Source: Bombilactobacillus bombi (GTDB lineage: Bacteria; Bacillota; Bacilli; Lactobacillales; Lactobacillaceae). Taken from it: a stretch of 64,000 nucleotides of DNA. Positions 36,552-53,733 of the stretch are shown here, piece after piece; the stretch's first letter is position 1; every line of letters starts with the position of its first letter. Both the position numbers and the translations under genes were made by a program. The stretch lies in contig NZ_CP031513.1 of assembly GCF_003522965.1 (NCBI RefSeq), positions 1,240,001 through 1,304,000 of the forward strand, read 5' to 3'. The notes beneath the pieces were generated by a model. It was not told the origin of the DNA. It saw only the letters and a program-made list of their open reading frames with translations, and did no database searches.

Positions 36552-37970
36552 TTACCAGATACCAATAATTTTCATCCAGAAGGTTCCTAGAACTCCCCAT
36601 ACAAACAAATAGAAGAAAGCTAAAATAAAGTTATACTTCCACCAGCTACTTTGATCAACATAACCTGTACCAAAAAGAACAGACGCTGGGCCGTTAGCAT
36701 AATGCGTCGTAGAAGAAAAGATTGCTCCTGTAAATCCTAACAACATCGCAGCTAAAACTGGAGGTGCACCAGCAGAAATTGCTACACCTAATAAAGCCCC
36801 GTACATCGCGGAAACATGAGCTGTTCCACTAGCAAATAAATAGTGACTGTAAAAGTAAAAAATTACTAAAATAGCCAAAACAATACCCCAACTGACACCA
36901 TTTAAGGCACCACCAATAGATTTTGATAACCAGGGAATAAAACCTAATTTATTTAATTCATTAGCCATAAAAATTAAAATCGAAAACCAAACTAAGGTAT
37001 TCCAAGCACCTGTTTCTTGAAGAATATCCTTAACTGTTAAAACACCACAAATTAATAAGACAGATACTGCCATAAAGGCTACTAATGAGGCTTCCATATT
37101 GATAAAACTGGATAGCATCCACAAAATCAAGGCCATAATAAATACTGCAGCCATAATCTTTTCTGGAAAAGTAACTTTACCAAGTTTAGCTAATTCCGTT
37201 TCAGCCCATTCTTTAGCATTTGGGGTGTCTTTAATTTCTGGAGGATACATTTTGTAAATTAACCATGGAACAACAATCAAACTGATCAATCCAGGCAACA
37301 AAGCAGCCATGAACCAACTCATCCAAGATAGATTAACATGTAAACTCTTAGCTAAAGCAACTGCTACTAAGTTAGGAGCCATTGCAGTCATGAACATCCC
37401 ACTAGTAATTAAATCACCGTGATATTCAGCAAAAACCAAGAAAGAACCAATTTTACGTTCGGTACCATCACCTACCTTAGATCCATAAGTTTCGGCTAAA
37501 GATTGAATAATGGGATAAACAATTCCCCCTGCACGTGCTGTATTACTGGGCGTTGCTGGTGAAGTTAATAAATCAACTCCAATTAAAGAATATGCTAATC
37601 CTAAAGTCTTTTTACCGAATAAACGAACAAAGTGTAATGCTACACGCCGTCCAAGACCAGTATTAATAAAGCCCCGGGACATAAAATAAGCCATCGCAAT
37701 CATCCATACTGTTCCGTTACCAAAACTAGACATAGCGACATCCATAGGAACAATCCCTAATAAAACGGTAAGCGTAATGCCAATAATTGCTACACCAGCA
37801 ATGGGTAAGGGCTGTGTAATACAACCAATAATTGTGGCTACAAAAATTGCCAGAATATGCCATGCTGCAGGTGTTACTCCCACTGGACACCAAGGGGTAG
37901 TAAACCAAATAAGCAAGCCAATTACTAGCGGCCAGATAAATTTAGAATATTTAACTTTATTCAGTTTCAT
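36552..37970 (-). CDS. citT: DASS-family anion transporter (citrate/succinate antiporter type)
   Basis: 472 residues with about 12-14 membrane segments. LLTSPATPSNTARAGGIVYPI near residue 135 (quoted in part as SPATPSNTARAGG) is the hallmark of the CitT/SoDiT1 branch of the divalent-anion:sodium family, and a second signature SSTTHYANGPASV appears near the C-terminus. CitT exchanges external citrate for internal succinate. Placement as the last gene after fumarase, fumarate reductase and malate dehydrogenase fits that exchange. Malate, fumarate or oxoglutarate exchange remains possible. Confidence 0.83.
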   Translation of the reverse strand: MKLNKVKYSKFIWPLVIGLLIWFTTPWCPVGVTPAAWHILAIFVATIIGCITQPLPIAGVAIIGITLTVLLGIVPMDVAMSSFGNGTVWMIAMAYFMSRGFINTGLGRRVALHFVRLFGKKTLGLAYSLIGVDLLTSPATPSNTARAGGIVYPIIQSLAETYGSKVGDGTERKIGSFLVFAEYHGDLITSGMFMTAMAPNLVAVALAKSLHVNLSWMSWFMAALLPGLISLIVVPWLIYKMYPPEIKDTPNAKEWAETELAKLGKVTFPEKIMAAVFIMALILWMLSSFINMEASLVAFMAVSVLLICGVLTVKDILQETGAWNTLVWFSILIFMANELNKLGFIPWLSKSIGGALNGVSWGIVLAILVIFYFYSHYLFASGTAHVSAMYGALLGVAISAGAPPVLAAMLLGFTGAIFSSTTHYANGPASVLFGTGYVDQSSWWKYNFILAFFYLFVWGVLGTFWMKIIGIW

Positions 37971-37991
37971 GAGATTTCTCCTTCTCTCGAT

Positions 37992-38918
37992 TTAAATCTG
38001 TTCTAAAATTGCTGCTAGTTGGGTGGCTGAAATTTTCATTTTTTTCAGCTCATCTTGGGATAATGGGGTTGCAATAACTTGAGCAATACCTTCATTATTA
38101 ATGATTGCAGGTGAACCCAAATACATATCATATAGTCCATACTCACCATTTAGAGGAGCTGATATCGGCACAACTAAATTTTGATTATCTAAAATTGCTT
38201 GACAAATTTGAGCTAAGCAACGTGCTACTCCATAAAAAGTCGCACCCTTGTTTTGAATAATATAACCGCCCTTACTACGTACTTGTTGCTCTAATTCTTC
38301 TTTATCAGTCTCAGCTAAGGTTATTAATTCAGCTAATGGTCGACCTAAAACAGTCGTTTCTTCAAAATTAACAAAAGAACTGTCACCATGTTCACCTAGT
38401 ACGTAGCTATTAATATCATTAACAGCAACATTTAATTTTTGAGCTAATGCGACTTTTAAACGAGCTGTATCTAAAGAAGTTCCAGTTCCAATCACTTTAT
38501 TCTTCGGAAATCCAGATAACTTTTGTGTTAAGGTGGTCAGAATATCCACAGGATTACTAGAAACTACAAAACAGCCTTGAAACCCACTTGCAACAATGGG
38601 TTCGACAATTGATTTTAAAATCTGGTAATTTTTTTGTACTAAATCCAGCCGACTTTCTCCAGGTTTGCGTGGAACTCCGGCTGTTATCACAACAATAGCT
38701 GCATCTTGAGCATCAGAATATTCTCCAGCCGATATTTTAGTGTTACTTTCAAAGGGAATAATATCTTCTAAATCAGCTACATCTCCGTTAACATGATCTT
38801 TTTTGAGATCAGTAATAACTAATTCATCTACTTGACAATTTTGCAATAAAGAAAAAGCAAACGATGATCCTACCGCACCGTCACCTACTAATAATACTTT
38901 GCGTTGATTAATCTTCAT
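37992..38918 (-). CDS. Malate dehydrogenase with lactate-dehydrogenase-like backbone
   Basis: 308 residues. The backbone is that of bacterial L-lactate dehydrogenase: GDGAVGSS nucleotide loop, SSNPVDILT, D150/R153 in LDTARLK and catalytic H177 in GEHGDSS. The substrate-specificity position of the active-site loop reads VPRKPGESRLDLV: R84 replaces the glutamine (Q102 in the standard numbering) of lactate dehydrogenases. Arginine there is the classical determinant of oxaloacetate/malate recognition. With fumarase and fumarate reductase in the same operon, NADH-dependent reduction of oxaloacetate to malate is the expected reaction. A hydroxyacid dehydrogenase for another dicarboxylate is the alternative. 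Confidence 0.85.
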   Translation of the reverse strand: MKINQRKVLLVGDGAVGSSFAFSLLQNCQVDELVITDLKKDHVNGDVADLEDIIPFESNTKISAGEYSDAQDAAIVVITAGVPRKPGESRLDLVQKNYQILKSIVEPIVASGFQGCFVVSSNPVDILTTLTQKLSGFPKNKVIGTGTSLDTARLKVALAQKLNVAVNDINSYVLGEHGDSSFVNFEETTVLGRPLAELITLAETDKEELEQQVRSKGGYIIQNKGATFYGVARCLAQICQAILDNQNLVVPISAPLNGEYGLYDMYLGSPAIINNEGIAQVIATPLSQDELKKMKISATQLAAILEQI

Positions 38919-40318
38919 TACTTATCCCCTTTTTGCAGATATTTGAAAACTTGTTGTCCTGCTTGCCGCCCAAAAATAATGGTTTCAGCGATTGAATTGC
39001 CACCGATACGGTTATTACCATGTAGCCCACCTGCTACTTCACCTGCAGCATATAGGCCAGGAATTACTTCGCCCTTTTGACTCATTACTTGAGTGTTAGC
39101 ATTAATTGCAATTCCGCCCATTGTATAATGCACTGCTGGCGCAATGTGAATTGAATAATATGGTGCTTGTGTTAATTGCCGCTCCATTCCAGTACTTCGC
39201 TGATATTCGTTATCTTGGTGCTTTTGAACAGCTTGATTCCAAGTTTGAATGGTCTGCTCCAAGATATCGGCCGCAAAATTATTTTGTTGAGCTAAATCAA
39301 CTAAGCTTTGGCCAGTTTTTACTAAGCCGATGTGATCATAAAACTCAATAGCTTTCACACGTTCACGTACACTTTGGTCAAAAATTAAAGTAGCACCATT
39401 TTCTTTCAAATTATTAATAGCAGCAGTAACGTTTTTACGTGTATCTAATTCATTAACAAATCGTTCACCGTTTTTATTAACTAAAATGGCTCCTTCGCCA
39501 CGCACCGCTTCTCCGATTAAATATGGATGTTCACCATCTTGTTGAACCGTTGGGTGAACCTGAATTTGATCCATATCTACTAGTTGAGCTCCTATAGCTG
39601 CGGCTAATTCAATACCATCCCCCACAGCTCCTGGTTGGTTAGTAGTCTTTAAATCAGCTAAATCAGGGCGATATTTTTTAATTAATTTTTGACCAGCACC
39701 AAATCCACCTGTAGCTAAAATGACTGCTGGCGCCAAAATGGTTTTACTTTGCCCATCAATTTGTGCTTGAACCCCTTTAACATGCCCATCTTCTTGTAAT
39801 ATTTGCGTCACTTTTATATCGGTAAATAATGGTAAGTGCGCTTGATCTATTTGTTTGAGCAATTCAGTCACTAAAAATCCACCGATAGGAGCCATCGAAG
39901 CTGGACGATGGGTCCGCATTACCTTCATGCCGCCAGTAATTGTCAAATCATCTAAATGAATATCATGAGCTGCCAACCAATCAATAGCCAACGCGCTATG
40001 TTCTGTAAAATAATGTAATAAAGCGGGATTATTTTGTTGACCGCCACCTTGATAAACATCATCATAAAAATCTTGATAGCTATCAACTATCTGATGATTT
40101 AACTGCACCATAGTTTCTGCAGCATTCATTCCTGACGAAGCTTTCGTAGTATTGCCACCAATTTTGGGCATTTTTTCTAAGATTACTGGTTTTAATCCTA
40201 GTTCATGTGCTTGCAAAGCACTAGTTAAACCAGTTCCACCTGAACCAATAATGATTACATCATATTGCTCTTGGAGTTGTTCTTTTGCAGTTGCTTGAAA
40301 AATAAATTTTTCTGTCAT
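38918..40318 (-). CDS. Soluble fumarate reductase flavoprotein (flavocytochrome c-type)
   Basis: 466 residues. FAD-binding IIIGSGGTGLTSALQA near residue 22, GGNTTKASSGMNAAET, the active-site EAVRGEGAILVNKNGERFVNEL followed by DTRKNV with the catalytic arginine, HYTMGGI and GNNRIGGNSIAET are all present. Histidine and arginine in the last two motifs bind fumarate carboxylates in Shewanella FccA, so this one should be a true fumarate reductase. It has no heme, FMN-bind domain or signal peptide, so it is cytoplasmic and must take electrons from a soluble donor. Its ATG overlaps nothing but touches the fumarase gene (10-base gap). Confidence 0.88.
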   Translation of the reverse strand: MTEKFIFQATAKEQLQEQYDVIIIGSGGTGLTSALQAHELGLKPVILEKMPKIGGNTTKASSGMNAAETMVQLNHQIVDSYQDFYDDVYQGGGQQNNPALLHYFTEHSALAIDWLAAHDIHLDDLTITGGMKVMRTHRPASMAPIGGFLVTELLKQIDQAHLPLFTDIKVTQILQEDGHVKGVQAQIDGQSKTILAPAVILATGGFGAGQKLIKKYRPDLADLKTTNQPGAVGDGIELAAAIGAQLVDMDQIQVHPTVQQDGEHPYLIGEAVRGEGAILVNKNGERFVNELDTRKNVTAAINNLKENGATLIFDQSVRERVKAIEFYDHIGLVKTGQSLVDLAQQNNFAADILEQTIQTWNQAVQKHQDNEYQRSTGMERQLTQAPYYSIHIAPAVHYTMGGIAINANTQVMSQKGEVIPGLYAAGEVAGGLHGNNRIGGNSIAETIIFGRQAGQQVFKYLQKGDK

Positions 40319-40328
40319 GTTTTACCTC

Positions 40329-41714
40329 TTAGTTTTGATCGATATTTGTCATATTGATTGGCACAACCCATTTATCAAATTGCTCGGAAGTTACTTTGCC
40401 TGATTTGACAGCAGCTTCTTTTAGTGTGGTTCCAGCTTTTTGAGCCTGTTGAGCAATCTTAGCACTATCATGATAACCAATATGTGGTGATAAAGCAGTA
40501 ACCGTCATTAGAGATTTATCAACTAATTCTTGCATTCGTTCTTCATTGACCGTCATGCCGGAAATCATCTTATCGGCAAAGCCCATCATTGTTCCACTCA
40601 ATAATTGAGCTGATTCTAAAAAGGCATCAATTAAAACTGGCTTATAAACATTCATTTCAAAGTTGCCTTGGCTCGAAGCTAAATCCACTACCACATCGTT
40701 ACCCATAACTCGAACAGCAGCCATAGTAATTGCTTCTGCTTGGGTCGGATTAACTTTTCCAGGCATAATTGAAGATCCTGGTTCATTAGCTGGAATATTC
40801 AATTCATTATAGCCAGCACGCGGACCGCTGCCTAAGAATCGCACATCATTAGCAATTTTCATTAAATCAGCAGCCAAAGTTTTCATTGCTCCATGGACAA
40901 CATTCAAGCCTGAATGTGCTGCCAAACCATAAAATTTATTAGTCTTGGCAGTAAATTCAATATCGTATAATTGACTCATTTTATCGGCAATTAAGTCAGC
41001 AAAATGAGGAGCAGCATTTAAACCAGTACCAACAGCAGTTCCTCCCATTGCTAATTCATTCAAAGTAGGAGCTAGCTGTTGCAAATAACTCAAATCATGT
41101 TCAATCATGCTGACCCAGCCACTCACTTCTTGCCCAAAAGTCAACGGAGTTGCATCTTGTAAATGAGTACGACCAATTTTTACTACATGCCAATATTGTT
41201 CTTGTTTCTTTTTTAATTCGGCAATTAAATGTTGTGCTGCTTTTTCTAAATCACGGACTGCTACAGCTGCAGTAATATTCATTGCAGTTGGAAAAATATC
41301 ATTAGAACTTTGACCATGATTAACATCATCATTAGGTAAAATTTCTAAATCAGAATTAATTTGACCGGCCATATGAGCCACTACTTCATTGACATTCATA
41401 TTAGTTTGCGTTCCTGACCCAGTTTGATAAACAACCAATGGAAAGTCCTTGCGCAATTGGTCATCGTTTAAAGCTAATAATTGATCAATAGCTTCGACAA
41501 TTAAATCTGCTTTTTCTGCAGCAATTGCTTTTTCATTTTTGTTAGCAATTGCGGCTGCTTTTTTAATTTGTAACAAAACTTTGATAATTTCTAAAGGCAT
41601 TTTACTGCCTGTTTGAAAGTTATTACGACTACGTTCAGTTTGGGCACCCCATAATGCGGTATCCGGAATCTTAACTGGTCCTAAAGTATCCTCTTCAATA
41701 CGATATTCTGCCAT
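40329..41714 (-). CDS. fumC: Fumarate hydratase class II
   Basis: 461 residues. Motifs in order are TERSRNNFQTG, GSGTQTNMNVNEV, DDVNHGQSSNDIFPTAM, GRTHLQDATPLT, MGGTAVGTGLN and the superfamily signature GSSIMPGKVNPT, with the catalytic serine in that loop. It converts malate to fumarate here, the middle step between the malate dehydrogenase and fumarate reductase encoded downstream. It opens the four-gene operon, with GGAGG before its ATG and a cre-like site upstream. Confidence 0.95.
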   Translation of the reverse strand: MAEYRIEEDTLGPVKIPDTALWGAQTERSRNNFQTGSKMPLEIIKVLLQIKKAAAIANKNEKAIAAEKADLIVEAIDQLLALNDDQLRKDFPLVVYQTGSGTQTNMNVNEVVAHMAGQINSDLEILPNDDVNHGQSSNDIFPTAMNITAAVAVRDLEKAAQHLIAELKKKQEQYWHVVKIGRTHLQDATPLTFGQEVSGWVSMIEHDLSYLQQLAPTLNELAMGGTAVGTGLNAAPHFADLIADKMSQLYDIEFTAKTNKFYGLAAHSGLNVVHGAMKTLAADLMKIANDVRFLGSGPRAGYNELNIPANEPGSSIMPGKVNPTQAEAITMAAVRVMGNDVVVDLASSQGNFEMNVYKPVLIDAFLESAQLLSGTMMGFADKMISGMTVNEERMQELVDKSLMTVTALSPHIGYHDSAKIAQQAQKAGTTLKEAAVKSGKVTSEQFDKWVVPINMTNIDQN

Positions 41715-42586: not shown

Positions 42587-43543
42587 ATGAATAGAATTCA
42601 AAAAAGTTATTACAACTTAGGAACTTTGATTAATCTCACACTCTTTGGCAATCCAGATTTACAAGAATTGGAGCAGTCCCACAATTTAATTGCTCATTAT
42701 GAAGATTTATTCACCGTTAATCGTTCTCACTCGGAAGTAATGCAAATCAACCAAGCTGCCGGTCAACATCCTGTTGTTGTTAGTGATGCAGTTTACAGTT
42801 TGGTCAAACAAGCGATTTTATTAAGTCAAGAAAATTTTGGATTTAATGCTTTAATTGGACCATTAGTTAAACTATGGAAAATTGGTTTTGACGATGCCCA
42901 AGTACCATCTGAATCGCAAATCTCACAATGCTTACAACTAATTAATCCCTGGGATTGTGAACTGGATGATGATAAATTAACTGTTTATTTAAAAAGGGCT
43001 AACATGCAATTAGATTTAGGAGCAATCGCTAAAGGATATATTGCCGATCGTATTCATGACTATTGGCAAGCCTTAGGAAAACTCGCTGGAATAATTGATC
43101 TGGGTGGCAACTTATTATTAATGGGTAATTCTCCACTTCATGATAATCAACAGTGGTCAATTGGTATCCAAAGTCCACAATCCCAACACAGAAAGTCGAT
43201 TGCAGCTATTAACTGGGGCCCTTGCTCAGTAGTAACTAGTGGTATTTATGAACGGTATCTAGAAACTGCTAACAGTTATTATCATCATATTTTGAATCCC
43301 AAAACTGGTAAGCCCCTTAATAATAATCTAGCAAGTGTTACTATTTTTTCGAAACATTCAATTGATGGTGAAATCGAAACAGGGAGGCTTTTCTTTGCTG
43401 GAGGGCCTTTAGTGGGGTGGGCCAACAAACGATCAGATATCTACGGAGCTGTTTTTGTTACTAAAGACAAAAAAATCATCCTGCAAAAGCTCCCACAAAC
43501 TGCAGTCACTCTACTGGATGATCATTATGAACTTACTAATTCC

Positions 43544-43564
<21 letters not shown>
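42587..43564 (+). CDS. apbE: FAD:protein FMN transferase (ApbE family)
   Basis: 325 residues. N-terminal region with LFTVNRSHSEVMQIN; the flavin-transfer core LDLGAIAKGYIADRI, GIIDLGGNLLLMG and VTSGIYERYL; then YYHHILNPKTGKPL with the histidine and a metal-binding loop. ApbE links FMN covalently to a threonine or serine in FMN-bind domains. The window encodes one such target, the 814-residue reductase at 45577-48021 with DAISGATRTS near its end. No export signal or lipobox is seen, so the enzyme works in the cytoplasm, matching the cytoplasmic target. Confidence 0.9.
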
Positions 43565-44978: not shown

Positions 44979-45011
44979 AAAAAATGCTGAGTTCATTAAA
45001 CCCAGCATTTT
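44979..45011 (-). terminator. Terminator of the flavin-reductase operon
   Basis: Stem AAAATGCTGAGT with two mismatches closing on CAGCATTTT, followed on the minus strand by T residues, 7 bases after the stop of the 181-residue flavin reductase gene. Confidence 0.82.
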
Positions 45012-45017
45012 TATATA

Positions 45018-45563
45018 TTATCTATGAAAATGATTAATATAATCTATAAAGTCATTAAAACAGTTTTGCAATTTTTGATCTTCTACTTTTTCTGTCAAGT
45101 TCCCTAACTTATCAAAAGCCTTGGCAGTATTACCTAATAAGAATTCATTCCCAGGCAAAACATATGCATCAATTTCTGGGCAAACTAAAATCTGTCGTAA
45201 TTGCAGTTGAGCTCTGGAAGCACCCTGTGTTCCATAAGAAGCTCCCACTACCATTACCGGTTTAGCTTTAAAGGGATGAACCTTATAAGACATCCATTCC
45301 AATAAACTCTTGAGTGCCGCTGGAATTGCATGATCATACTCCGGTGTACTAATAATTATACCGTCAGCTGCTGTAATTTTCTTTTCAATATCTACTAATT
45401 CAGAATAATTATTTAAATCATCGTCCTCACAAAAAGCTGGTAATTCCGTTAATTCACAAATTTCAATTTCTGCTTGTTTAGAAAATTTCTTTTGGATATA
45501 TTTTAATAAAATGCGATTATAAGAAAAATCCGCATTTGTTCCAACGATTGCAAATAGCTTCAT
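45018..45563 (-). CDS. NAD(P)H-dependent FMN reductase, partner of the multidomain reductase
   Basis: 181 residues of the flavodoxin-like NADPH-dependent FMN reductase family: GTNADFSYNRILLKYI at the N-terminus (phosphate loop), IISTPEYDHAIP near residue 78 and GASYGTQGASRAQ near residue 112. It aligns throughout with the first 180 residues of the 814-residue protein directly upstream, so it is a tandem paralogue of that domain. The gap between the two genes is 13 bases. Likely role: supply of reducing power (reduced flavin) to the ene-reductase or to similar acceptors. Confidence 0.86.
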   Translation of the reverse strand: MKLFAIVGTNADFSYNRILLKYIQKKFSKQAEIEICELTELPAFCEDDDLNNYSELVDIEKKITAADGIIISTPEYDHAIPAALKSLLEWMSYKVHPFKAKPVMVVGASYGTQGASRAQLQLRQILVCPEIDAYVLPGNEFLLGNTAKAFDKLGNLTEKVEDQKLQNCFNDFIDYINHFHR

Positions 45564-45576
45564 TTAATTTGCTCCT

Positions 45577-48021
45577 TTATTCTACTTTGCTTAAAGCATC
45601 TTTAACTGCTTCTTTGAGGGCAGCACTAGTTCTTGTTGCACCTGATATAGCATCCACATTATAGGTGTTTTTAGTAACCATTGTTTTTGGTAGAGTTTCT
45701 AAAGCTTCTTTGCTAACATCTTGGCTTTCACTTTGCTTTAAAACTTCGACATTTTCGAGTTTTTTATTATTATCCAAAGTGATCCGAACGACAATTTCGT
45801 CTCCCATGCCAGCATTACTTTTACCTAAATATTGATTACTAGCTGTTACAAATGATTCTTCCTTTTGTAAGTCACTGCCTAAATTATTAGTAGTTACTTG
45901 CATAGCTGGTTGTACCATCGTAGCAGTATTTGTTGGCGTTTGAATATCTACTTTTACTTGAGCTGCATTTTGTCCTGCAATTTTTCCCGATATCAAACAA
46001 TCAGCAAGATTACCACCACCAGCATATTGATTGGCGAAAGGAGCCCCTAATTCACCTGCTTCATATAAGTGAGCGATTGGTTGACCGTTTGGATTCAAAA
46101 CTTGGCAGCGTGAATTTCTTCTAGCTCCACCTTGGGTATTCAACATATTCTGCCGCATCAAAATAGCATAATAAGGCCCATTTTCACTAAAACTTGTTAA
46201 TGTTTTAGGCTCTCTTTGATATGCATAATCTTTGCCTTTCTGAGCAAAATAATTAAAGTCGGTAATGGTTTGCTGCAAATTATCGGCATTAGTCCCAATT
46301 TTATTAGCTAACTCAGCTAAGTTATTGGCTTTAATAGCAAATTTCAAAATATCTGGATAACCATTGAGATTATCATTATCAGCTTGAATTTTGTCATATT
46401 GTTTTTGATCAAAAATAACAGCTGGATGTTCTTGTGACAATGGTATCCGCCAGAAACCATGATTATAAATATGTCCATGACGATTAATGTCGTCTTCCTT
46501 AAAATAACGAGTACCATCATCGCCAATCGTAATAATACTGCCTGTGAATAAAATTGGCCAAAAAATATTCGTCGCATATTTACTACGCACGCCTTTAGGT
46601 TGCTTTGGCGATAAACCATGGAGCTGTCCTAATGATTCATAACTACGCATATGCCATAAATCAGCACCAACTTCTAAAGCCATCTTAATACCCGCGCCTT
46701 TATTATAAGTTGTCCCAATTGGTGATAGATATGGTTCTTGCAGATAGTCTTCAATCATTTGTTGATTATTTTCAAAACCTCCAGTAGCTAAAACCACACC
46801 ATTTTGCGCTTGAATATTTCGCACTACGTGTTCATGTTCAACTTGTACACCAATAATTGTTTTTGTTTGTAAATCTTGAATTAAATGAAGTGCTGGTGAA
46901 TTAAACCAAACATCAATTTTATCGGCACTCTCAACCACCTTTTGTCGTAAGATTTTCCATAAGGCAGCATCCGCAATTCCTTCATGAACAACAGTCATAT
47001 CTGCACTATGTACACCTGAAAATTCGGGATATTCTTCAGTAACTGCGCTTAAATCGCTTTCAATCCATTGTTTACGAATACTAAATGGCTCAACATCTAG
47101 ATACTTTTTAACATAGTTATTCATATCCACTAAACCTTCTACAAAGGTGTTGAGAACATCATCGTCAATTCCAATTGGTTCAGCCATTTGCTTATAATAA
47201 GATTTCAGATTATCAAAATTATCTCCCGAAGCAATTAATTGGTGCGAAACTTTAGTATTTCCGCCTTCCGAACCTTCTGGAGCGGCATCTACTAGTAAAA
47301 CCTTGGCACCTTCATCAGCAGCAAAACGAGCAGCTGTCGCGCCAGCACCACCAAATCCTAAAACTACAACATCATAATTAGCATCCCACTGGATTTTAGG
47401 ACTAGAAGCAAAAACAGACTGGGTAAGAGCTTGAACTGTTTTTTCTTGATCTGGTATTGTTTTTGTTTTTTGGTCAATTAACTTATTTGAATTAATAAAT
47501 TTAATGAATTCACTAATACATTGCTCTAAAAAAGAAACTGTTTTTTCATTTTTAATATTACCTTCACTATCAAAAGCAGTCTTTGCATTACCTAATAAAA
47601 ACTCATTTCCTGGCAAAACACGCGGGTTTACACCTGGTGAATCTAAAATCTGTCGCAAATGCACCTGAGCACGGCTGGAACCTTGAGGATGATAGGAAGC
47701 ACCGACAATCATCAATGACTTATTAGCTAAGGGATGTATTCGATATGATAACCACTCGATTACGCTTTTTAATGGTGATGGTACAGAGTGATTATGTTCA
47801 GGAGTACTAATAATAACCCCATCAGCCGCAGCAATCTTTTCGGCTAAAACTGTTATACTTTCAGGATCAGCTGCAGGGTGATTCTCATTAAACAGAGGAA
47901 TATCCTTAATTTCGCAGATTTCTAATGCAAATTGATTAGCAAAATGTTTTTGAATATATTGTAACAACATGCGATTATATGATTGCCTAGCATTAGTGCC
48001 TACAATTCCCACAATTTTCAA
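45577..48021 (-). CDS. Three-domain flavin ene-reductase (FMN_red + FAD_binding_2 + FMN_bind)
   Basis: 814 residues. Residues 1-180 form an NAD(P)H:FMN reductase domain; about 215-695 a fumarate-reductase-type FAD domain starting VVVLGFGGAGATAARFA; about 735-814 an FMN-bind domain with flavinylation motif DAISGAT, T796 being the likely ApbE target. In place of the HYTMGG and NRxGG carboxylate-binding motifs of fumarate reductases it has LNTQGG and NQYAGGGN. Hence the substrate is probably not fumarate. Layout and the adjacent flavin reductase resemble the hydroxycinnamate reductase HcrB/HcrA of Lactiplantibacillus plantarum. No signal peptide, so it acts in the cytoplasm with NAD(P)H. Substrate is inferred only. 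Confidence 0.87.
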   Translation of the reverse strand: MKIVGIVGTNARQSYNRMLLQYIQKHFANQFALEICEIKDIPLFNENHPAADPESITVLAEKIAAADGVIISTPEHNHSVPSPLKSVIEWLSYRIHPLANKSLMIVGASYHPQGSSRAQVHLRQILDSPGVNPRVLPGNEFLLGNAKTAFDSEGNIKNEKTVSFLEQCISEFIKFINSNKLIDQKTKTIPDQEKTVQALTQSVFASSPKIQWDANYDVVVLGFGGAGATAARFAADEGAKVLLVDAAPEGSEGGNTKVSHQLIASGDNFDNLKSYYKQMAEPIGIDDDVLNTFVEGLVDMNNYVKKYLDVEPFSIRKQWIESDLSAVTEEYPEFSGVHSADMTVVHEGIADAALWKILRQKVVESADKIDVWFNSPALHLIQDLQTKTIIGVQVEHEHVVRNIQAQNGVVLATGGFENNQQMIEDYLQEPYLSPIGTTYNKGAGIKMALEVGADLWHMRSYESLGQLHGLSPKQPKGVRSKYATNIFWPILFTGSIITIGDDGTRYFKEDDINRHGHIYNHGFWRIPLSQEHPAVIFDQKQYDKIQADNDNLNGYPDILKFAIKANNLAELANKIGTNADNLQQTITDFNYFAQKGKDYAYQREPKTLTSFSENGPYYAILMRQNMLNTQGGARRNSRCQVLNPNGQPIAHLYEAGELGAPFANQYAGGGNLADCLISGKIAGQNAAQVKVDIQTPTNTATMVQPAMQVTTNNLGSDLQKEESFVTASNQYLGKSNAGMGDEIVVRITLDNNKKLENVEVLKQSESQDVSKEALETLPKTMVTKNTYNVDAISGATRTSAALKEAVKDALSKVE

Positions 48022-48155
48022 AATGTTAAATCCTCCTTGATTTTTTTACAAATATTAACAAATTTTATTATAACTCCTTGAAAAGAATTTGTGAATGGTA
48101 TAATTTTAACAAAGTCAATCTTATGTCTTTCAAAATTATTTTTATTATTAAGCAA

Positions 48156-52136: not shown

Positions 52137-53733
52137 TTGAAAACAATTAATAAATTTTTTAAATACATAACTTATTTTTTTATAACAGCAATGAGTTTAT
52201 CCGCAACGTTAAAATTAATTTTTAACTTGATACAGGCTAAAGACCATTTTCTATCCGAAATATTAACTATTGTAATATATCTAACTATAATATGTATTTT
52301 ATCAATGTTAATTTATTTTAATCACCCTAAAATTAGTAAAATTTTAGAAAACAATAATTTAAGAAAGTCGATTTATGCTGTTTGTCTCTGTATTTTGCTA
52401 ATCTGGCAGGTAATTATGATTACTAACTTGACCACTTTTGTAGGTTGGGATCCGCAACAAACGCTTCTTTCTCTAGTTGCTAGACCCAAAATGGGAGGAT
52501 GGTTGCATGAATATTTATCATATGATCCTAATAATCTAGCTTTATATTATTTATTTGCGTTTATTCAAAAGTTCTGTCATATATTTCATATTCCTTTTTC
52601 CATGTTTATTATTAATTATTTTAATATGTTCATTATTGATTTATCACTTATCCTATTATGTTGGGCTATTCGTATTTTAACTAATAAAATCTCTGCATTA
52701 ATTGGTTTTGTCACAATCATTTTATTATTTGGCTTTTCACCTTGGATTATTGTTACCTATACGGATACATTATCGTTATTGCCCGTAAGCTTCGGAATTT
52801 TAGCTTTTGCACTATTAATAAAAAGAAAAAGTTATATTGCTGCTTTATTGTTAGGAATTGCTGGTAGCTTAAGTTACTTTGTTAAGCCATCCAGTGCTAT
52901 TTACTATATAGCCGCAATAATTGTTCTCATTTTGACTAGTGGCTTTGATAAATCAGGCATCAGGCATCAGGCATCAGGCATCAGGCATCAGGCATCAGGC
53001 ATCAGGCATCAGGCATCAGGCATCAGGCATCAGGCATCAGCTAATATTAACCACCATAACAGTTTTGTCAACGATAATTGTCAATTCTGGTTTGCAATTA
53101 TTTAATACTCATCAGACAATGTATCCTATTGATTCACACCTCGCAACCTCACCAACACAATACTTAATGATGGGAGCTCAAGGAAACGGTGGCTACAGCT
53201 TAGAAGATGTACTTTCTAATATTAATGATCCTGACAAGCAAAGTTTACCTCGTAAAAATATTAATGAGTATTTAAATCGTGTACAGAAAATGGGAATTTT
53301 CGGTTATCCTAAATTTTTGGCTAACAAATTTTATCAAACTAATAGCGATGGATCTTTTGGATGGGGGACTGAAGGAGGCCCTGACTTTATTAATCAAAAC
53401 ACCCGTCCATATTCTGATGATTTTGGTGGACTTTTACGGCGTTTTTATTGGCCATTAGGAGATTTAGCTTACATCTTTTTCACAATAGCGCAAATGTCCT
53501 GGATTTTAATCACTATTTTATTAGTTTTATCTTTTAAAAAAATAGAACGACTAACTTTATTGACCAAAAATTGGCTTTATTTAACTATTATTGGCGCTAA
53601 TGTGTTTCTATTATTATTTGAAGCCGGTAGAAGTAGATTTTTAATTCAATTTTTACCTGTATATATTATCCCCTTAACAATTGTTGTGACAGCTATACTG
53701 TATCCTCAAAATACAAAACTTACTTCTAATTAA
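52137..53733 (+). CDS. Phase-variable GT-C-like integral membrane protein (out of frame here)
   Basis: A multispanning protein with the look of membrane glycosyltransferases of the GT-C fold: an acidic WDPQQTLLSL after an early membrane segment, YDPNNLALYYLF, YTDTLSLLP and later EAGRSRFLIQFLPVY. A 7-bp tandem repeat at 52952-53040 splits it: the first frame runs 52137-53105 (322 residues), and the homologous C-terminal half continues in another frame to 53733. Removing one repeat, or adding two, would join them into 529 or 536 residues; one extra copy would stop at 53042. The start is TTG with GGGGTG 6 bases upstream. I infer a surface-sugar transferase; the exact family (XrtG-associated/TIGR03766-like is one candidate) is uncertain. 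Confidence 0.72.
52952..53040 (+). repeat. Tandem heptanucleotide repeat, 12.7 perfect copies of ATCAGGC
   Basis: Twelve perfect units from 52952 to 53035 plus ATCAG. The repeat has no stop in any forward frame and encodes the cyclic heptapeptide SGIRHQA whichever frame is used. Because 7 is not divisible by 3, every gain or loss of a unit changes the downstream frame. Confidence 0.98.

Follow-up and report, generated by a model that had tools for sequence, protein, structure and literature searches.

Hydroxycinnamate reductases of Vibrio and flavin reductases of gut bacteria belong to the wider background of the enzymes compared here and were not used as evidence. In L. plantarum WCFS1, the genes hcrR, hcrA, hcrB, and hcrC are reported to encode proteins of 315, 204, 812, and 186 aa, respectively (PMC11126511). 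HcrB is described as NADH-dependent, and HcrA is reported to improve HcrB production and to reduce HcrB proteolysis (PMC10295242). Strains of F. rossiae without HcrB carry an hcrB-like gene, par1, whose deletion is reported to abolish the reduction of sinapic, ferulic, and caffeic acids; the par1 homologs of L. plantarum WCFS1 are given as lp_0952 and lp_0055, both described as not induced by p-coumarate (PMC10295242). Par1 has the reported accession WP_161000921.1 (PMC12715276) and a reported identity of 25 per cent to HcrB (PMC11126511). One account places it in the short-chain dehydrogenase group SDR_a5 (PMC10269891), which conflicts both with its description as hcrB-like (PMC10295242) and with its reported identity to HcrB (PMC11126511). 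The par1 par2 mutant is reported for F. milii FUA3583 (PMC10216370). In UrdA, the substrate carboxylate is reported to be held by Arg560, His520, Arg411, and the amide of Gly563, and the R411A and R560A variants to be inactive (PMC7921117).

The window (the whole stretch of 64,000 nucleotides that we analysed) comes from the complete, 1.84-Mb genome of Bombilactobacillus bombi. It carries the gene of an 814-aa protein that, judged from its sequence relatives, probably saturates the C=C bonds of plant phenolics with NAD(P)H, as a self-contained enzyme with three flavins. The gene and its surroundings comprise the following features:

45577..48021 (-): putative Par1-family three-flavin ene-reductase, 814 aa (open reading frame, Pfam domains, family tree, structural model)
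47584..48021 (-): FMN_red domain, aa 1–146, predicted site of NAD(P)H:FMN electron entry (Pfam, 8e-35; groups with HcrB/PAS domains)
46009..47373 (-): FAD_binding_2 domain, aa 217–671, predicted ene-reductase site (Pfam, 1.5e-30)
45589..45810 (-): FMN_bind domain, aa 738–811 (Pfam, 1.2e-14; the sole one found in the genome)
45634..45636 (-): T796, predicted ApbE flavinylation site (motif DAISGAT; Ser in 79, Thr in 9, and a gap in 2 of 90 family members)
45018..45563 (-): stand-alone FMN_red partner, 181 aa, proposed HcrA-like role (Pfam, FMN_red tree, 51 per cent identity to the first domain)
42587..43564 (+): ApbE flavin transferase (the sole one found in the genome)
48067..48095 (-): promoter-like TTCACA-17-TATAAT, 11/12 (consensus only)
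44980..45012 (-): terminator-like hairpin after the partner gene, closing the two-gene unit (consensus only)

The 814-aa open reading frame starts with TTG, immediately preceded by AGGAGG, and its Pfam domains follow the order FMN_red–FAD_binding_2–FMN_bind. Because the N terminus is itself the flavodoxin-like fold, the protein is taken to be cytosolic. The first-pass annotation had described a covalently flavinylated ene-reductase that includes its own NAD(P)H:FMN reductase and has a flavinylation site at T796, a stand-alone paralog of the first domain next door, and an ApbE gene nearby. The domain assignments support this description: the FMN_red domain covers aa 1–146, the motif D790-A-I-S-G-A-T796 is present, and both neighboring genes are where they were said to be. 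The enzyme is well conserved; judged by its family, its catalytic class is clear, and its substrate is a matter of inference. Among lactobacilli, the same three domains occur in three orders: FMN_red–FMN_bind–FAD (HcrB), FMN_red–FAD–FMN_bind (the window protein and a 792-aa relative), and FMN_bind–FAD–FMN_red. The last is found in a 763-aa protein (L145:347–2638), whose preceding open reading frame looks ApbE-like by eye.

The FMN_bind domain carries the [S/T]GA[S/T] motif of ApbE-flavinylated proteins (PMC8238504), and in the complete genome ApbE and FMN_bind are each matched once, the FMN_bind match being the window protein. Across the seven genomes of the genus, ApbE was found in five and an FMN_bind domain in four; two genomes have neither, and since one has ApbE without FMN_bind, the co-occurrence of the two is not strict. 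In B. mellifer and genome G108, the two genes have ApbE as their neighbor, and it lies within 3.5 kb of 13 of the 90 distinct family members (many of these loci are short).

A terminator-like hairpin also closes the preceding unit upstream of the 814-aa gene. Because hairpins close both that unit and the partner gene, and a promoter-like site lies upstream, the 814-aa and 181-aa genes look like one short operon; the consensus scan returned 22 promoter-like sites against 20.7 expected in shuffled sequences, and 5 terminator-like sites against 2.7. Further along the window, at 52952–53040, a 7-base unit, ATCAGGC, is repeated 12.7 times with 100 per cent matching, and two overlapping open reading frames in different frames (52137–53105 and 52939–53733, both +) seem to form one membrane protein. 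The unit length is not divisible by three, which suggests slippage and phase variation.

The relationship of the two reductase modules was examined in a tree of FMN_red domains (67 rows after thinning of 119 distinct sequences), in which stand-alone domains (HcrA and the partners of PAS proteins) separate from fused ones (HcrB and PAS proteins). The window domain groups with the HcrB and PAS domains (support 96/91), apart from 18 other family members and together with domains from G108, G004 (B. mellifer Bin4, of the same genus as the host), and G255. Its 181-aa partner groups with the neighbor of an FMN_red-PAS gene in G255 (99/96). A second FMN_red gene follows within 35 bases on the same strand in 7 of the 34 fused family members; the window clade accounts for four of these and the G255 group for three. 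None was found near the other 27 (two of which have fewer than 200 bases downstream). Four of these seven are present in the thinned tree, and their reductase domains group with that of HcrB. Based on this tree, the 7/34 pairing, and the reported role of HcrA, the 181-aa protein is probably a heterodimer partner. It is an hcrA-like neighbor that lies downstream, not upstream, and falls outside the HcrA clade. In Gilliamella wkB108 (L097), a fused FMN_red domain groups with that of HcrB and a stand-alone one with HcrA, and HcrB-like enzymes may thus occur in the same gut.

The family to which the window protein belongs is a large and little-studied set of lactobacillus FAD/FMN proteins. The gene is present in three of the seven Bombilactobacillus genomes, and in the Lactobacillaceae-level family survey at least 102 of 397 sampled genomes gave a match at an E-value of 1e-100 or better (two candidates scored per genome). 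The examined loci contain 114 family open reading frames, 90 of them distinct; fused members number 34 in the count of downstream genes and 35 of 90 in the residue survey, as duplicates were removed differently. In B. mellifer Bin4, a second family member (L152:4671–6009) is broken by stops. Relatives of the window protein also occur in 153 plasmid records, mostly from Enterococcus (95) and Lactiplantibacillus (36); none of these covers 80 per cent of the query, and the best span the FAD and FMN_bind part. A LysR gene lies within 3.5 kb of 48 of the 90 family members (many loci being short), and none adjoins the window gene.

In a tree of FAD domains (96 rows, reconstructed by a quick method), the 90 family members come together in a single starred clade. 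Within it, proteins from two Bombilactobacillus genomes and G108 group with the window protein (support of 97), and this group then joins loosely (80) with four Lactobacillus proteins, including one from L. apis. The label "bee" in this tree was assigned by us, partly from species names, and also covers G002, G108, G271, and G358. VprA is the outgroup nearest to the family, on a long branch, and HcrB sits among the Frd and UrdA rows (the outgroup branches are long, and one join is flagged as doubtful).

The active site was mapped with a MAFFT alignment that included flavocytochrome c3 (1qo8), UrdA (6t85), HcrB, and VprA, and a hidden Markov model built from 49 family members and aligned to the PDB chains placed the motifs in the same way. 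In the 814-aa protein, LNTQGG occupies aa 627–632 and NQYAGGGN aa 664–671, and four positions are of particular relevance:

46141..46143 (-): L627, at the ligand site of FccA His504/UrdA His520 (MAFFT and HMM alignments, numbering)
46138..46140 (-): N628, at the site of FccA His505, the second His of HHTMGG (MAFFT and HMM alignments, numbering)
46024..46026 (-): Y666, at the site of FccA Arg544/UrdA Arg560, 90/90 (MAFFT and HMM alignments)
46480..46482 (-): R514, beside the site of FccA Arg402/UrdA Arg411, 89/90; candidate proton donor or carboxylate ligand (alignment)

Specifically, the numbering of the UrdA and flavocytochrome c3 chains identifies FccA His504 and UrdA His520 as the first His of HHTMGG, and the ligand His therefore falls on L627; a mapping to N628 was ruled out on the same grounds. 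Among the 90 distinct family members, position 627 is occupied by Leu in 86 cases, by Gly in 3, and by Val in 1, and none has the ligand His there, which makes its loss firmer. Position 628 is Asn in 80, His in 6, Trp in 3, and Thr in 1. The six members with His at 628 read HTHGG and adjoin a DASS transporter; as their His corresponds to the second one of HHTMGG, they do not regain the ligand. Of the residue set of soluble fumarate reductases, five of six are replaced (His504 by Leu, Arg544 by Tyr, Glu378 by Trp, Arg381 by Leu, and His365 by Leu), and Arg402 is shifted by one, its site being N513, followed by R514 and H515. In the alignment, candidates for equivalents of the missing His and Arg from elsewhere in the sequence are R514 and H515, just past the Arg402 site, and the conserved H521 (H515 and H521 are each present in 87/90 members).

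These results bear out the proposal of the first-pass annotation that the His and Arg that hold fumarate are absent, with Leu at the His site in 86 and Tyr at the Arg site in all 90 family members. The replacement of the classical ligands also supports its claim that the protein is not an orthodox fumarate reductase. The predicted fumarate reductase at 38918–40318 does keep these ligands (HYTMGG and NRIGG), again as described. It lies in a run (36552–41714) of a DASS transporter, a lactate/malate dehydrogenase, the fumarate reductase, which has no FMN_bind domain, and a fumarase, perhaps a malate-to-succinate electron sink.

A DASS gene adjoins 15 of the 90 family members. A basic residue at position 665 occurs in 11 of these 15 versus 10 of the 75 others (Fisher P-value = 7e-6, kinship ignored), which is a hint only; the 814-aa protein has Gln at this position. 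At loci L081, L083–L086, and L088, family members, mostly two per locus, stand beside a DASS transporter and a LysR gene, have a basic residue at 665, and sometimes read HTHGG; their substrates are perhaps carboxylates. Bee Lactobacillus members at L072, L073, and L075 have GWSEAGP in place of LNTQGGP and REGY in place of RHGH, and adjoin a gene weakly similar to FumC.

The link to Par1 was traced through gene positions and homology. In a Lactiplantibacillus genome (G257), four consecutive genes match the hcrRABC lengths exactly (hcrB being read from its second start), and its HcrB is the one compared here; a 629-aa family member is the third gene from asnS (confirmed by NCBIfam). Because lp_0956 is reported to be the Asn-tRNA ligase (PMC7278804), the 629-aa protein is assigned to lp_0952. 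The position of the 792-aa member, 42 open reading frames (of at least 70 aa) from a contig end with dnaN and recF- and gyrase-like genes (dnaN alone was family-checked), suggests lp_0055. The window protein is 51 per cent identical to the 629-aa protein over 623 aa and 46 per cent identical to the 792-aa protein over 820 aa; it is thus an FAD_binding_2 plus FMN_bind homolog of both and falls in one clade with them. The draft genome of F. milii FUA3583 contains two family members, of 625 and 644 aa, which are 53 and 49 per cent identical to the window protein and both have LNTQGG and NQY; the 644-aa protein is 66 per cent identical to the 629-aa protein. Outside the family, the same genome encodes a further FAD protein, of 582 aa, that is 26 per cent identical to HcrB. 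From the lp_0952 anchor and the two FUA3583 members, we infer that the window protein belongs to the Par1 family.

Because an initial AlphaFold model (16 sequences, pLDDT of 72.4) covered the active site poorly, a second one, built from 49 sequences, was used instead (mean pLDDT of 87.8, pTM of 0.72). For the FAD part of the latter (approximately aa 209–693), VIA-align gave Z = 39.7 for flavocytochrome c3 (rmsd of 4.1, 427 residues aligned), 38.3 for UrdA (4.1, 434), 38.0 for ketosteroid delta4-dehydrogenase (4.4, 435), and 37.9 for the delta1-dehydrogenase (3.2, 440). The rmsd to the model is 3.2–4.4 Å for ketosteroid and cyclohexanone dehydrogenases; it is 5.5–6.6 Å for most flavocytochrome c3 entries and 4.1 Å for 1qo8 and UrdA 6t86. 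With this predicted structure, the fold comparison is close to tied (Z of 36–40 for both kinds of enzyme) and does not tell an acid substrate from a ketone.

We favor, with a probability of roughly 0.55, the reading that the gene encodes a Par1-family NAD(P)H:ene-reductase with three flavins and that its most likely substrate, serving as an electron sink, is a hydroxycinnamic acid of pollen or nectar or a derivative of such an acid. NAD(P)H would reduce the FMN of the N-terminal FMN_red domain, in a heterodimer with the 181-aa partner. Electrons would then pass to an FMN attached by ApbE to T796, as the motif, the domain, and the sole available target suggest, and from there to FAD, which would deliver a hydride to a conjugated C=C bond at its beta carbon while R514 or H515 supplies a proton. 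It is the relationship to Par1, and no assay, that points to this substrate: hydroxycinnamate reduction is reportedly lost when par1 is deleted, so a substrate of this class remains likely, via Par1 and without the classical His/Arg carboxylate clamp. In the first-pass annotation, hydroxycinnamates had been proposed on the model of L. plantarum HcrB; the substrate class stands by way of Par1, and the HcrB model does not. Several points weigh against the favored reading: the substrate would be an acid while the clamp is absent; paralogs are so many that substrates may differ at 50 per cent identity; lp_0952 and lp_0055 are described as not induced by p-coumarate; one account puts Par1 in SDR_a5; FUA3583 encodes the additional 582-aa FAD protein; the window gene has no adjoining LysR gene; no phenolic acid decarboxylase was found in the host genome; three of the seven genus genomes carry the gene; and ApbE and FMN_bind do not strictly co-occur in the genus.

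Since HcrB keeps both residues, His and Arg mark carboxylate binding rather than fumarate as such, and their absence speaks against an acid site of the HcrB type. Their loss would mirror the loss of the carboxylate itself if the enzyme acted on a neutral conjugated substrate (a vinylphenol, enone, enal, or hydroxycinnamoyl amide or ester), an explanation that we regard as possible and clearly less likely than the favored one. Flavocytochrome c3, UrdA, HcrB, and the predicted fumarate reductase all keep the ligand His and Arg, whereas VprA, the nearest outgroup in the FAD tree (on its long branch), has Phe and Tyr; the dehydrogenases of ketosteroids and cyclohexanone fit the model at 3.2–4.4 Å; and basic residues at 665 accompany a DASS neighbor (11/15 vs 10/75, kinship ignored), with Gln in the window protein. 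However, the fold comparison is tied, and free acids are reportedly no longer reduced in vivo once par1 is deleted (PMC10295242).

The resemblance of the FMN_red pair to the HcrA/HcrB and FMN_red/PAS pairs would also suit an NADH flavin reductase that reduces O2 to H2O2 and has no dedicated ene substrate; coupled FMN reductases of L. acidophilus and L. johnsonii are cited in this role, and H2O2 is named in the reference titles. This seems improbable, as a complete FAD domain and family-wide conserved residues in the active-site region would go unexplained. Even less probable is a cryptic reductase of fumarate or another dicarboxylate serving the neighboring malate–fumarate genes. A fumarate reductase, a fumarase, and a DASS transporter do lie within 12 kb, and 15/90 family members adjoin a DASS gene, yet there is neither a clamp nor any equivalent of His365, Glu378, and Arg381, and an orthodox fumarate reductase is already present. 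We give the lowest credence to an orthologue of HcrB with the classical carboxylate clamp: the three shared domains, the 63 per cent identity of the FMN_red domains, and the adjoining partner gene are outweighed by the domain order, the FAD-domain identity of 27 per cent, the missing clamp residues, and the separate clade, which together contradict it.

As we tentatively suggest at somewhat below even odds, Par1-type enzymes might represent a second way of reducing hydroxycinnamates that arose independently within the FAD_binding_2 superfamily. Such enzymes would hold the substrate without the His/Arg clamp, either by a new site around R514, H515, N628, and Y666 or because the true substrate is a masked acyl group (an amide, ester, or thioester). 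Bee-gut lactobacilli would have taken over an HcrB-like heterodimeric reductase module and would use pollen phenolics, for example phenolamides, as electron acceptors. Bee pollen is reported to contain phenolamides and flavonoids (PMC7144025). For bee-gut bacteria, the enzyme would open a way to pass electrons to pollen phenolics. The residue set L627, N628, Y666, R514, and H515 provides a handle on hydroxycinnamate binding by clampless enzymes, and many lactobacillus FAD/FMN proteins become tied to Par1. The comparison also corrects a tempting inference: because HcrB keeps the clamp, losing His and Arg does not make a protein HcrB-like.

Compared with the known enzymes, the window protein shares with HcrB (lp_1425) the same three domain types and a small FMN_red partner gene. 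HcrB, however, has the order FMN_red–FMN_bind–FAD_binding_2 and keeps HHTMGG and NRLGG in its FAD domain, both of which are absent from the window protein, and the FAD domains are 27 per cent identical over 320 aa. UrdA and flavocytochrome c3 fumarate reductase have the same FAD-domain fold (Z of 36–40); their carboxylate ligands are replaced in the window protein, and where they have a haem or free FMN domain, the window protein would use the fused FMN_red module for electron entry. VprA (lp_3125) is similar in its FAD_binding_2 fold, in the Tyr at the Arg site, and in the loss of the His site, with Phe and Tyr at the His and Arg sites and vinylphenol substrates that lack a carboxylate. At approximately 500 aa, it is too short for two FMN domains, it is 25 per cent identical to the window protein and has Tyr also at the Arg402 site, and the window protein scores 114 bits against the VprA model NF053717 of NCBIfam, below the curated cut-off of 600. 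The closest counterparts appear to be Par1 and Par2 of F. milii, with which the window protein would share the FAD_binding_2–FMN_bind family, the LNTQGG/NQY fingerprint, and 49–53 per cent identity; the two F. milii members have no fused FMN_red domain, and Par1 is known genetically, not biochemically.
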